This document shows positions 8,950 to 15,053 of a DNA stretch of 64,000 nucleotides, one piece after another; the first letter of the stretch is position 1, and every line of letters starts with the position of its first letter. The DNA comes from Chthonomonadaceae bacterium (GTDB lineage Bacteria; Armatimonadota; Fimbriimonadia; Fimbriimonadales; Fimbriimonadaceae), in NCBI GenBank assembly GCA_015709495.1, contig CP054189.1, positions 2,356,001 to 2,420,000 of the forward strand. Reading direction: 5' to 3'. The notes under the pieces were generated by a model, which saw only the letters and a program-made list of their open reading frames with translations, was not told where the DNA came from and ran no database searches. Made by a program: the position numbers and the translations under genes.

Positions 8950-10052
8950 GTGCCGAGCTACCTCGTCCTAAGCGACGGTTCCATCTATCAAGGCGAGCCG
9001 CTGGGGTCGCAGGGCGATACCATTGGCGAGGTCGTCTTCAACACCGGGATGACCGGCTACCAAGAGATACTCTACGATCCGAGCTACGCGGGCCAAATCG
9101 TCACCTTCACCTACCCTTTGATCGGGAACTACGGCATCAATGACGACGACTTCGAGTCCGATCGGGTGCAGGTTGCCGGAATCGTCGTCAGGGAAGCCTG
9201 CGAAGTGCCTTCGAACTGGCGCTCCCGTCGTTCGCTTGGCGCGTTCTTGGCAGAAAACGGCGTCACCGGCATCCAAGGGATCGACACCCGGGCCGTCACC
9301 AAGCACATTCGCAGCCGGGGCGTCACGATGGCGACGATCACCTCGGCGCAGCCGGAACTTGCCGCCGAAAGACTCCAGTCGGCCACCGCATATGACGACA
9401 CCGACTTCGTTCAGCGCGTCACGACGAAGGCCCCCTACAAGTGGGGAAGGACCGGCAAGGAGTCGGTCGAGGAGGCTGACGACGAGGGCCGCCCCCGGCT
9501 TGTGGTTCTCGATTTCGGGCTCAAGTTCAACATCCTTCGTAGGTTCTGGCGGGCCGGATGCCGACCCGTCGTCTTGCCCGCGACTGTCACCGCAGACGAA
9601 ATCCGGGCCTGGAAGCCGGACGGCATCCTCCTTTCGCCCGGCCCGGGAGACCCCGCAAGGCTCGGCCCCCAAATCGAAGTCGTGAGCGAACTCCTTGGCG
9701 AACGGCCGCTGTTTGGAATCTGTTTGGGAAATCAAATCCTGTGCCACGCGGTCGGCGGCTCGACGTACAAGCTGAAGTTCGGGCATCGGGGCTCCAACCA
9801 GCCGGTCAAGGACCTCGAAACCAACACGAACACCATCACCTCGCAGAACCACGGATACGCGGTCGACGCGAACTCGCTTTCGGGCACAGACGCGCGAGTC
9901 ACCCAGATCAACCTCAACGACGAGACGGTCGAAGGGATCGACGTCCCCGGCGCGGACGCTTTCGCGATTCAGTACCACCCCGAAGCCGCTCCGGGCCCTT
10001 GGGATTCCCGCCCGTACTTCGAGAAGTTCGTGGGCCTGATGGGGGCCATGCG

Positions 10053-10056
<4 letters not shown>
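8950..10056 (+). CDS. carA: Carbamoyl-phosphate synthase small (glutaminase) subunit
   Basis: This 368-residue protein releases ammonia from glutamine for carbamoyl phosphate synthesis (pyrimidine and arginine pathways). The N-terminal CPSase small-subunit domain contains '[19 protein letters not shown]'. The class I amidotransferase domain has nucleophile C258 in 'FGICLGNQ' (N where H is usual) and the H343/E345 pair in '[10 protein letters not shown]'. Translation starts at a GTG. A TAGAAT at 8881-8886 could be its -10 box. The stop overlaps the start of the next gene by ATGA, so translation is coupled to the first half of the large subunit. Confidence 0.96.
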
Positions 10057-11801
<1,745 letters not shown>

Positions 11802-11903: not shown

Positions 11904-12455
11904 ATGAATCGTAAGTTTCTCATTGCCGCGTCCGCGCTCTCTCTTCTCGTCGTCCCCGCGCTTGCCAATTGGGCCGAATCGGGCCTGAACGTGGGCGAGA
12001 CGGTCACGCCGTTCTACCCGAGCCACATCGCCGGGCCCGACAAGGGAACGAAGAACTGCCCACCTTGCACCTATGGCAATCGGCCGGCCGTTCAGGTTTG
12101 GTTCCATAATGAGGACAAGAACAACGCCGCCGGGATTCTCACCGCGCTGCACACTGCCGTCGAGTCCAACAAAGCCAAGGAGTTCAAGGCCTTCGGAATC
12201 TTCGTCGCCGACTGCGAGATGTGCATCACGAACACGAACGCCGTCGTCGAAATGCTGAAGTTCAACAACGTCGGCATCGCGACAGTTACTCACGACGACC
12301 CGGCGCCCAAGAACTACAAGATCGACACCTCGGAAGAGGTAAAGAACACGGTGCTTGTTTACGTGAACAAGAAGGTCGTGGCCAAGCTCGTCAACGTCAA
12401 GGCGGATAAGGCCGGCCTTGCCAAGCTGAACGAAGCGATCACGAAGTCCCTGTAA
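11904..12455 (+). CDS. Secreted thioredoxin-like protein with CPPC motif
   Basis: This 183-residue protein has a signal peptide of about 21 residues (cleavage after ALA) and a good ribosome binding site (GGAGG). The segment 'KNCPPCTYGNRPAVQVWF' places a CPPC motif before a beta strand, as in redox-active thioredoxin folds. Two further cysteines lie in 'VADCEMCIT', and 'NTVLVYVNKKVVAKLVNVK' looks like the closing strands. A role in periplasmic thiol or metal chemistry is inferred; no specific partner is known. It sits between the two carB halves in the same orientation and is followed by its own terminator. Confidence 0.6.
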   Translation: MNRKFLIAASALSLLVVPALANWAESGLNVGETVTPFYPSHIAGPDKGTKNCPPCTYGNRPAVQVWFHNEDKNNAAGILTALHTAVESNKAKEFKAFGIFVADCEMCITNTNAVVEMLKFNNVGIATVTHDDPAPKNYKIDTSEEVKNTVLVYVNKKVVAKLVNVKADKAGLAKLNEAITKSL

Positions 12456-12472
12456 CGACGATCGAGTACCTC

Positions 12473-12511
12473 ACAACGGCAGGACCCGCAATTCGCGGGC
12501 CCTGCCGTTGT
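12473..12511 (+). terminator. Intrinsic terminator of the CPPC protein gene
   Basis: A long hairpin pairs ACAACGGCAGG...CCCGC with GCGGG...CCTGCCGTTGT around AATT, with one bulge, and is followed by ATTTT. It starts 17 bases after the stop codon. It should separate this gene's transcript from the downstream half of carB. Confidence 0.8.
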
Positions 12512-12546
12512 ATTTTGGGAGGCGACCGCGTTGAAGAGGGTGTCGC

Positions 12547-13110
12547 TCACCGCTTCGACTTCCTCGCTCCACAAAGCCTCTCGGTAAAGCCCCCTTCGTT
12601 CTCAAAGGAGTTCGCCTGAGACTGGATTTGTCTCGTGAGCAGGGCAGTGGCCACGGCGATCAGCGCAAGGGCAGCGTTGGCGCGGATTTCGGGTTCGGGG
12701 GATAGGGTGGACGAAATGGATTGGATCCAAGCATCGATATCGTCGAGGGATCGGGGACGGGCGTCGATGAGGCGTTGCCGTCGGGCGTCGTCGCGGTCCC
12801 ACTGAAGCAGCTTCCTGTGTCGCAGGAAGTCCTCGTAGTCAAGGCGCAGCTCCTCCAGGCTCGCACGCGCCACGCTGGTGAGCTTCATTTCCATCTTCTT
12901 GGACGTCGCGCTCACCTGGCTGCCTTCTGCGATGTTCTGTACACCTGAGCGAGCCGCCTGCACCATCTGATCCCTGGTTCGGCTCCTCGAGTCCACATAT
13001 CGGTCTACAAAGTCCACCGTCAGGTCGTAGGCCAACTGCGCAACCTGAAAGGACTTGAGGTTCCTATATCCGCCATGCCTCGGAATCAATCCATCGTTCA
13101 CTCTGTCCAC
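12547..13110 (-). CDS. Four-helix-bundle protein (S23/23S rRNA intervening-sequence type)
   Basis: This 187-residue protein matches the four-helix-bundle family: 'YRNLKSFQVAQLAYDLTVDF' is followed by 'RDQMVQAARSGVQNIAEGSQ' and 'MKLTSVARASLEELRLDYED'. Family members are found in 23S rRNA intervening sequences and, as Avd, in diversity-generating retroelements; most free-standing copies have no known role. The GTG start lies inside a 9-bp tandem repeat (GTGGACNNN), so the first residues are repeat-encoded (M-D-R-V-N-D). The C-terminal 60 residues are less conserved. It is the only leftward gene between the carB halves. Confidence 0.8.
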   Translation of the reverse strand: MDRVNDGLIPRHGGYRNLKSFQVAQLAYDLTVDFVDRYVDSRSRTRDQMVQAARSGVQNIAEGSQVSATSKKMEMKLTSVARASLEELRLDYEDFLRHRKLLQWDRDDARRQRLIDARPRSLDDIDAWIQSISSTLSPEPEIRANAALALIAVATALLTRQIQSQANSFENEGGFTERLCGARKSKR

Positions 13111-13194
13111 TTAGTCCACTCCGTCCACTTAGTTCACACGGTCCACCCAGTCCACTCCGTCCACCCAATCTTCGCTGTCCACCCAGTCCACCCC
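13096..13194. repeat. 9-bp tandem repeat, 11 units of GTCCACNNN
   Basis: Eleven 9-base units run head to tail with consensus GTCCACNNN (GTGGACNNN... read on the minus strand as NNNGTGGAC). Eight units are exact in the first six bases, two read GTTCAC and one is degenerate (ATCTTCGCT). Read leftward, the repeat is in frame with the four-helix-bundle gene and encodes V-D-x units, broken upstream by TAA codons in two units. It covers that gene's start codon. Confidence 0.9.
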
Positions 13195-13326
13195 TTCCCC
13201 CAAAAAGCCTACTGATTCCCCCATCCAGGAATCTCGGCCGTCCGTTCTCCCCGCGGACCTTCAGGTAAAGCCACGTCGTACAGTGACCGGAAAGCCAGAC
13301 GACGGCAGGGAGGGGGAGGCGTCGGA

Positions 13327-13332
13327 TACAAT
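13327..13332 (+). promoter_or_regulatory. Candidate -10 box before the second carB half
   Basis: TACAAT lies 11 bases before the ATG of the C-terminal carB gene, which has no Shine-Dalgarno. This placement would give a nearly leaderless mRNA. No -35 match is seen. Confidence 0.3.
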
Positions 13333-13343
13333 ATCCTTTTGAA

Positions 13344-15053
13344 ATGCCACAGAAGGTGCTCGTGCTCGGCTCCGGGCCGATTCGGATCGGACAAGGAATC
13401 GAGTTCGACTATTCCTGTGTCCACTGCGCTTGGGCTTTGCAGGACATGGGGTACGAGGCGATCCTTCTCAACAACAACCCCGAGACCGTTTCGACGGACT
13501 TCGACACCGGGGATGCCCTTTACTTTGAGCCTGCGACGCTGGAAGACGTCCTGGACGTGTACCGGCGGGAGTCTCCAATCGGCGTGGCGGTGCAATTTGG
13601 TGGGCAGACCGCGATCAACCTCGCGCAGGGGCTTCATGACCGGGGCTTGAATATCCTAGGGACCTCGGCCGAGGCGATCGCATTGGCGGAGGACCGAGAC
13701 CAGTTCGAGCGGTTGTTGCGGCGGCTGGGGATCCCCAAACCTCCAGGTAGGGCGGTGCGAAGCTTATCGGAGGCGCTGGAGGTGGCCGAGGAGATCGGCT
13801 TTCCGGTGCTGGTTCGCCCGAGTTTCGTGCTGGGGGGCAGGGCGATGGAGATCGTTTTCGACGCGGAGCAGCTCCGTCGCTTCTATCGGATCGCGGAGGA
13901 CGAATCGCCGGGCCAGCCGGTCTTGATCGACAAGTATATGCAGGGGATCGAGGCCGAGGTCGACGTGATCTCAGACGGCGAGGCGACATTGGTGCCGGGC
14001 GTGATGGAGCACATCGAGCGGGCCGGAGTCCATAGCGGCGACTCGATGGCCGTGTTTCCCCCGGTGAACCTCTCGGACCGGGTGATTTCGCGGATGGTGG
14101 CCGCCGCTTGCGACCTTGCGCGAGAGATCGGGGTTCGGGGGCTGATGAACATCCAGTTCGTGGTCGCTCCGACCGAAGGTTCGGGGGGCGAGGCCGTCCC
14201 GCAGATTCTGGAGGTGAACCCTCGCGGCTCGCGCACGGTTCCTTTCTTGGCGAAGGTAACGGGGATTCCGATGGTGGACCTCGCTACGCGGGCGATGATG
14301 GGGCAAAGCCTTTCGGAACTAGGGTACGAGTCGGGGCTTTGGCGGCTCGACGCTCGCGGAAGGCTTCATGGGGCGGAGCCTGAGGTGCGGTCGAAGTCCA
14401 AGGGGACGGTACTTTCCGAGGCGGAGATCTCGCGGCTGTCGGATGGGAGCGCGGACACGCGGAGCCTATTCTCGGGCGCGCCCTTCTATGCGGTAAAGGC
14501 CCCTGTCTTCAGCTTCCAGAAGTTGGCGCGAGTCGAGCCGAGTCTTGGCCCTGAGATGAAGTCGACGGGTGAGATCATGGGGATCGATTCGACGTTCGAG
14601 GGCGCGCTCTATAAGAGCCTGGTGGCGTCTGGGATTTCGCTCCCGACTGGAGGGGTGGTGGTGATCAGCGTCAACGATGCCGACAAACCGGCGGCCATCG
14701 AGATCGCGAAGAGTCTCTCGGCGCGGGGACACGAGATCGCATGCACGGGCGGAACTCACCGGACCTTGCAGGCTGCGGGCGTGGGGAGTCAAAGGGTCGC
14801 CAAAATCAGCGAGGGTTCGCCGCATTTGCTCGACCTGGTGATGTCGCGGCGGGTCAGCCTGCTGATCAACACTCCCGGGACAGACGCGGAGACCGAAGCC
14901 GAGGCGTCTCGTATTCGGAGGGGATGCATCGAAACGGGCGTTGCTTGCATCACAAACATCGACACGGCGGAGGCCCTGGTGAAGGCGCTGCCGTTCTTCG
15001 AGGACCCTTTGGGAGTCTCGTGCCGTCGGCTCGACGAGTACTTCGGGCAGTAG
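13344..15053 (+). CDS. carB: Carbamoyl-phosphate synthase large subunit, C-terminal half
   Basis: This 569-residue protein is the second half of CarB: the carbamoyl-phosphate ATP-grasp domain plus the MGS-like allosteric domain. It starts 'MPQKVLVLGSGPIRIGQGIE', which in intact CarB lies mid-protein. It contains 'EVNPRGSRTVPFLAKVTGIP'. The C-terminal 140 residues form the regulatory domain ('GGVVVISVNDADKPAAIEIA', 'CTGGTHRTLQAAGV', 'LLINTPGT'). It must pair with the 10053 gene product to form a working subunit. No ribosome binding site is evident, and its expression cannot be coupled directly to carA because 1.5 kb, including a terminator and an opposing gene, lie between. Confidence 0.95.
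   Translation: MPQKVLVLGSGPIRIGQGIEFDYSCVHCAWALQDMGYEAILLNNNPETVSTDFDTGDALYFEPATLEDVLDVYRRESPIGVAVQFGGQTAINLAQGLHDRGLNILGTSAEAIALAEDRDQFERLLRRLGIPKPPGRAVRSLSEALEVAEEIGFPVLVRPSFVLGGRAMEIVFDAEQLRRFYRIAEDESPGQPVLIDKYMQGIEAEVDVISDGEATLVPGVMEHIERAGVHSGDSMAVFPPVNLSDRVISRMVAAACDLAREIGVRGLMNIQFVVAPTEGSGGEAVPQILEVNPRGSRTVPFLAKVTGIPMVDLATRAMMGQSLSELGYESGLWRLDARGRLHGAEPEVRSKSKGTVLSEAEISRLSDGSADTRSLFSGAPFYAVKAPVFSFQKLARVEPSLGPEMKSTGEIMGIDSTFEGALYKSLVASGISLPTGGVVVISVNDADKPAAIEIAKSLSARGHEIACTGGTHRTLQAAGVGSQRVAKISEGSPHLLDLVMSRRVSLLINTPGTDAETEAEASRIRRGCIETGVACITNIDTAEALVKALPFFEDPLGVSCRRLDEYFGQ

Follow-up and report, generated by a model that had tools for sequence, protein, structure and literature searches.

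In the window, the 64,000-nucleotide stretch of a Chthonomonadaceae bacterium genome that we analysed, carB is split in two. Its N-terminal half lies within 9558–11801 and its C-terminal half (ATP-grasp and MGS) at 13344–15053 on the plus strand, and the halves are separated by a thioredoxin-like gene and a four-helix-bundle gene; some relatives have the two halves side by side. The thioredoxin-like gene (11904–12455, plus strand), which has no Pfam hit and is named from its sequence, is followed by a terminator-like inverted repeat (12473–12516, plus strand). Next, on the minus strand, comes the gene for a 184-residue four-helix-bundle "suffix" protein (12547–13101) of the 23S-IVP/S23 superfamily (TIGR04258), whose proposed GTG start codon at 13101 is included in an 11-unit GTGGACnnn array (13093–13191, minus strand). 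No Rfam match was found in 12400–13400.

The distance between the thioredoxin-like gene and the second carB half is 889 bp here, compared with 136 bp in a genome of the same genus (G225) and 118 bp in a further relative (G216), and the extra DNA consists of the four-helix-bundle gene and its array. A comparable terminator-like repeat is also present 3′ of the thioredoxin-like gene in both relatives, so the insertion begins after the terminator. These comparisons showed the window gene to be a lineage-specific insertion relative to its relatives, with ends that are approximate because the relatives are distant (~61–72% protein identity in CarB).

A strain-variable array over the start codon

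Read 5′ to 3′ on the minus strand, the array runs GTGGACTGG GTGGACAGC GAAGATTGG GTGGACGGA GTGGACTGG GTGGACCGT (units 1–6) and GTGAACTAA GTGGACGGA GTGGACTAA GTGGACAGA GTGAACGAT (units 7–11), giving eight GTGGACnnn, two GTGAACnnn, and one degenerate 9-bp unit (GAAGATTGG). TRF called it at 13099–13203, with scores of 74–112 and periods of 9, 18, and 36. An earlier, sequence-only reading had described eleven units in a V-D-x frame, two of them with in-frame TAA; all of this was confirmed, and its coordinates for the array had to be moved by 3 bases. The array also stands above chance, since its pattern, GTGGACNNNGTGGAC, has 15 matches in the 2.9-Mb genome versus one for the reversed-pattern control.

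The likeliest start is the GTG at 13101 in the last unit, since it falls opposite the ATG of the paralogues when the N-termini are aligned (VNDGLIPRHGG with MSEPLIPRHGG and MGESLIPKHGG); a GTG at 13110 is an alternative that this alignment favours less. The two TAA units lie two and four units upstream of GTG 13101, and the V-D-x frame can therefore not be read far into the array. At the same locus of the same-species genome G085, which is 97.2% identical over the region, the array has 13 units (an 18-bp gap in the alignment), so that the unit number, for which a count in close relatives had been suggested, is indeed variable. The array of G085 has stop units of its own, and in-frame TAA or TAG codons are found near the start in both strains. 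The two-unit difference leaves the ORF intact, as 9-bp units preserve the frame; a unit change that switches the reading frame, as in phase-variable (contingency) genes, was not seen between the window and G085.

An S23-type bundle protein under purifying selection

In profile scans, the window protein scored 59 bits with TIGR04258 (curated cut-off 40) and 30.8 bits with TIGR02436 (cut-off 24). The match to PF05635 (23S_rRNA_IVP) covered positions 3–74 of 106 only, at 30.4 bits (E = 4.8e-7), below the gathering cut-off of 33.8. The AlphaFold model (mean pLDDT 91.9) has helices at residues 17–36, 42–64, and 69–96, a linker at 97–136, and a helix at 137–170. According to DSSP on this model, bundle helices 1–3 (residues 17–96) are encoded at 12817–13056, followed on the same minus strand by the helix 3–helix 4 loop (12697–12816) and the TIGR04258 suffix domain (12550–12693). 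With this layout, the suffix domain is modelled as bundle helix 4 and an additional C-terminal helix, and repeats within the gene fall in the helix 3–4 loop, which is variable in length within the subfamily and is the seat of its in-frame repeat arrays. In the window gene the loop holds a single inverted unit, GTCCAC (12707–12712, minus strand; peptide S-S-T-L), where the sister genes have three. We had considered the suffix as an extra domain beyond a 3′ arm, and dropped this because the model makes it helix 4, with the arrays between helices 3 and 4.

In agreement with an S23/IVP fold, 2gsc (Xcc0516) and then 2rld (BT_0352, S23 family) headed the PDB list, with probabilities of 1.00 and 0.99, TMt of 0.79 and 0.49, and modest E-values (4.7e-3 and 7.4e-2); Foldseek gave no match below E = 0.001, the best being 2gsc. 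The sole profile match to the window protein was again 2gsc (E = 0.23). Neither the family scans nor the model, a helical bundle, revealed a domain recognisable as a nuclease or transposase. Between the two strains, purifying selection acts on the window protein: its gene differs from that of G085 by eight synonymous and two non-synonymous changes, both in the loop, for a dN/dS of 0.077; the other dN/dS value obtained was 0.084.

The same word at the sister genes

The genome has four PF05635-type genes, three of the suffix kind and one suffix-less. Almost no solo arrays exist in it: of the 15 matches to GTGGACnnnGTGGAC across the genome, 14 are at the three TIGR04258 suffix loci, including a modification-like gene beside one of them. 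Each suffix gene has GTGGAC units before its start and at least one inverted GTCCAC unit inside the coding region. Scanning other family genes for the 9-mer, as had been proposed, thus found it at both other suffix genes; constant unit numbers and repeat-free family members, which the sequence-only reading had tied to chance expansion, were not encountered. The three copies have diverged at dS ~2, so recent transposition was not seen. The fourth, suffix-less gene lies between groES and groEL, with a long 8-bp array (CCAACAnn) after it and the inverse word before it.

The modification-like gene by one sister copy, in whose stretch no Pfam match was found, contains runs of GTGGAC/GTCCAC in several places of its coding sequence, and these differ between the two same-species genomes (L004, 300–1100; L051, 1700–2650). 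In G085, the adjoining modification-gene DNA is missing at the site of the second own copy, which is therefore uninformative as an empty site. A restriction-modification partner was considered, because genes of this type adjoin several copies, including two of the three in the own genome, and was rejected, because the neighbours of the 74 suffix loci sampled are very diverse: 95 Pfam families among 136 proteins, with Methylase_S in 6, N6_Mtase in 3, HSDR_N in 3, and Cas1 in 3. At most, the proximity reflects a preference for accessory regions.

Arrays in the loops of the TIGR04258 subfamily

The suffix sample comprised 74 named loci from more than 20 phyla. We measured repeat density as 5-mers recurring at an exact lag of 9, per kb, and took 330 bp as the upstream region. 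The loop had the highest density (27.8/kb), followed by the upstream (12.4/kb) and downstream (10.8/kb) regions, and the background was 2.9/kb in the coding bundle and 3.3–5.1/kb in the flanks; other lags were low, except lag 10 in the loop (8.9/kb). At 30 of the 74 loci, none of the three regions had as many as three lag-9 pairs. Loop length ranged from 29 to 89 residues in 50 aligned members with constant helix lengths. Period 9 was seen in 30 of 41 translated loops versus 6 of 63 arms of suffix-less genes (p = 2e-11); being common where translated and rare where untranslated, it fits a need to keep the frame.

Many loops contain a stretch of one word and then its inverse, as in a hairpin. 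Inverted 6-mers numbered 7.5 per loop versus 2.6 after codon shuffling, and folding was strong in three of the four loops tested (z −4.7 to −4.9; the fourth, −1.3). The loop of the window gene has its one inverted unit only. Its word and the upstream array are complementary, and the whole repeat-to-repeat segment did not fold above shuffles (z −1.5); the corresponding segment of a sister copy gave z −0.1. Pairing between the upstream array and the loop was rejected as a general rule of the subfamily: the inverted match was weak, with 14% of loci beating 95% of mismatches, and within-loop hairpins are commoner. Five suffix proteins (L026, L034, L048, L052, and L057) have a C-terminal topoisomerase-type zinc-finger motif (CPxCGxPM...FWGC..YPxCKG), a hint of nucleic-acid binding.

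The word follows the protein clade

We built a tree of 77 proteins with the loop removed, in which internal support is mostly weak, and set four word classes from the loops (TGGAC, ACGGAC, GTCnGAC, and GACCTAT), leaving 17 rows without a class. Word class required three changes on this tree, the minimum possible (shuffled mean 27.3, 0 of 200 as low), whereas host phylum required 49 (shuffled mean 52.5, lowest 49). In 20 of 21 cases, the noncoding arrays beyond the gene agreed with the word of the clade. Each protein clade was thus shown to keep its own word across many phyla.

That word and protein are inherited together could simply reflect the descent of one intragenic block. We infer selection on the word because it has persisted across phylum-level distances and also occurs outside the ORF. 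The peptides encoded by the forward word (S-G-x) and by its inverse (S-T-x) differ, which favours action at the nucleic-acid level; in the TGGAC clade, the word is in a single fixed reading phase within the loop, so that a peptide-level constraint may add to the nucleic-acid one.

Suffix-less S23 genes and the groES–groEL site

Around 70 suffix-less genes, the arrays are outside the ORF, have a period of 7 or 8, and are often inverted. Lag-7 density was 29.1/kb upstream and 25.1/kb downstream, and lag-8 density 13.3/kb and 16.6/kb, with flanks at 1.6–3.4/kb for both. The two arms of a locus had 23.7 6-mers in common versus 12.9 for mismatched pairs, and own arms beat 95% of mismatched pairings at 37 of the 70 loci (p = 1e-29), showing that the two flanking arrays of ordinary members tend to be inverse copies of one word.

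The same was observed at a single site. In 17 genomes of the same family, two of them of the same species, a suffix-less gene lies between groES and groEL, most often with matching inverted arms, and its word varies between genera: GTTGGCA at 7 bp, TGTTGGnn at 8 bp, TGTAAGGAT at ~9 bp, and TGGCTTTGnn and GGTTCGGATT at ~10 bp. Own arms had 12.6 inverted 5-mers in common, against 5.1 with the arms of other genomes and 1.2 in direct orientation, a score that was zero for L289, L291, and L233 and low for L288, all loci at which the automatically set gene ends gave hardly any arm sequence for the comparison, or none. Matching arms probably result from copying between inverted repeats together with slippage, perhaps with selection for pairing. 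In two same-species genomes, the 8-bp CCAACAnn array before groEL (L001, 1879–2030; L283) has an equal total length and a different order of units.

Three suffix-less genes are found inside large ORFs (L217, 3–2732, plus strand; L224, 2–3310, minus strand; L239, 3–2192, plus strand) that resemble DNA methyltransferases by motif (DPACGSGHFL, DPAMGSGAFL) and are putatively assigned as such. In all three, the host ORF is open through the whole element in another frame, with equal offset, which would give the host protein a long insertion overlapping the bundle gene.

Solo arrays in the phylum

Three-unit GTGGAC arrays occurred in 9 of 201 genomes of the phylum. A suffix gene was present in 7 of these 9 versus 24 of the 192 others (31 of 201 overall; p = 3e-5). 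One genome, G171, had 35 three-unit matches, and at nine of its solo-array loci no four-helix-bundle gene was found within ~1.5 kb. G171 is also dense in other dispersed short repeats near the solo arrays (L201, 8002–8290), given which these solo arrays are suggestive only.

Discussion

The repeats in the window are one case of a widespread pattern in which four-helix-bundle genes and short-word arrays move jointly between phyla. The descriptive pattern, with arrays beside or inside the genes, inverse arms, a word tied to the protein clade, and lateral movement, is well supported. It bears out in part the earlier suggestion of a mobile or selfish feature of this protein family: the same 9-mer is at two other subfamily genes, strains of the species differ in unit number, family members in many phyla are accompanied by arrays, word and protein stay together in inheritance although exchange between phyla is strong, and the window copy is inserted. 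That protein and word move together between distant phyla suggests that they work as a pair.

As a mechanism, we propose that a four-helix-bundle cassette of the 23S-IVP/S23 type moves horizontally and that the window array is its 5′ repeat block. The arrays would form hairpins or binding sites, in DNA or RNA, that the four-helix-bundle protein of the same cassette uses; a parallel would be the stem at the ends of a 23S rRNA intervening sequence, which is cut by RNase III. Unit number would drift through slippage. Copying from one inverted repeat to the other would keep the two arms alike, as would a requirement that they fit the protein or each other. We give an even chance to the idea that the arrays serve in this manner as nucleic-acid handles of an IVS-like, horizontally moving S23-type cassette for its own protein. 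More tentatively, such cassettes may represent a class of mobile unit, consisting of a small helical-bundle protein and a clade-specific word as a pair, with the word at the ends of the unit (and inside the gene in the TIGR04258 subfamily), arms kept alike by concerted change, and passage from phylum to phylum unaided by any transposase, phage, or plasmid; a phage or plasmid vehicle was rejected on searches that gave zero phage matches and one plasmid match.

Two other readings of the array itself fare worse. A plain microsatellite, in which slippage expanded a chance GTGGAC duplication by the start codon into a repeat without a role, accords with the two-unit difference between the strains, with imperfect units that include stop codons, and with the rarity of other strong 9-bp arrays in the window. 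It does not account for the same word at the two other subfamily genes of the genome, for an architecture that recurs in more than 20 phyla with a word that tracks the protein clade, or for flanks of the same contigs that are free of such repeats. As a full explanation it is largely refuted, and we consider it quite improbable, whereas slippage is the likely cause of the changes in unit number. The sequence-only reading had favoured a translation-start switch or variable N-terminus, where the start would shift from one in-frame GTG to another as units are added or lost. The units are indeed in frame and each was seen as supplying a GTG, but in-frame TAA or TAG units restrict any extension to a few codons in both strains, the paralogues begin with ATG at or after the array end, other homologues start just 3′ of it, and the length variation of the family is in the helix 3–4 loop, with none in the helices. 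Such a switch is not supported, and we regard it as highly improbable.

Two other alternatives give the repeats a role. If the array stems in mRNA were used by RNase III or termination to set expression in host operons, with no binding by the protein, the stable hairpins in coding loops and the matching inverted arms in operons such as that of groES and groEL would be expected, and the IVS offers a precedent (PMC4990558). Control at the RNA level only leaves unexplained both why one word goes with each protein clade across phyla and why units are found inside the coding loop, and we find it unlikely. Spread of the arrays through the genome by the protein and host enzymes, in the manner of REP/RAYT systems, would leave solo arrays behind; the solo loci of G171, the excess of suffix genes among array-bearing genomes, and the strain-variable GTGGAC/GTCCAC runs at several spots of the modification-like gene beside one copy all point in this direction. 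Against it, solo arrays are abundant in one genome only, itself full of other dispersed repeats, the helical bundle has no recognisable nuclease or transposase domain, and the own genome is nearly free of solo arrays; we consider this explanation improbable.

Under the cassette reading, the pairing of protein and repeat across phyla raises a testable question, namely whether each protein recognises its own word. If true, the pairing would account for the repeat blocks around S23/IVP genes, which are common (four-helix-bundle genes of this type are present in 49 of 101 sampled genomes of the phylum), and would offer a simple system for the concerted evolution of inverted arrays.

Comparison with known systems

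In REP/REPIN systems, a RAYT gene encoding a tyrosine transposase is flanked by short lineage-specific repeats, which are single palindromes. The present cassettes are similar in that short lineage-specific repeats flank a gene and solo repeats occur elsewhere in some genomes. They differ in having tandem 7–10-mers, solo copies that are rare outside one genome (G171), and no tyrosine transposase: the window protein has no Y1_Tnp match, its Pfam and NCBIfam matches being to four-helix-bundle families only, and many solo copies were found in G171 and not in the own genome. An S23-like small helical-bundle fold is also known from Avd of diversity-generating retroelements, which was absent among the structure matches listed for the window protein. 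The window protein is above the cut-offs of TIGR04258 and TIGR02436, and in the scan output the entries of these families and of PF05635 give no more than the name of a domain.

The closest published relative is the 23S rRNA IVS of Coxiella burnetii with its S23 gene. There, tandem GACAGAT heptamers precede the S23 ORF in two or three sets depending on the strain, within an inverted-repeat stem cut by RNase III; IVS occurrence is sporadic, horizontal transfer has been proposed, and the ORF was considered expendable (Warrier et al, 2016; PMC4990558). Our literature search, which covered subscription papers and preprints poorly, found no description of the repeat association, the loop position, or the co-inheritance of the word; these were worked out in the present analysis. 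Both systems have a protein of the same superfamily and short repeats just before the start (GACAGAT, with a GAC core, in Coxiella) whose number depends on the strain. The Coxiella ORF is enclosed by complementary ends, to which the complementary array and loop word of the window may correspond. The Coxiella element resides in 23S rRNA, whereas the present cassettes are in ordinary intergenic or operon positions, that of the window lying between the thioredoxin-like gene and the second carB half and not in helix 9, 25, or 45 of the 23S rRNA. Unlike the Coxiella IVS, the window subfamily has mostly 9-bp units, which are also found inside the gene, and words that depend on the clade, and, in contrast to the supposedly expendable Coxiella ORF, its representative in the window is kept by purifying selection.
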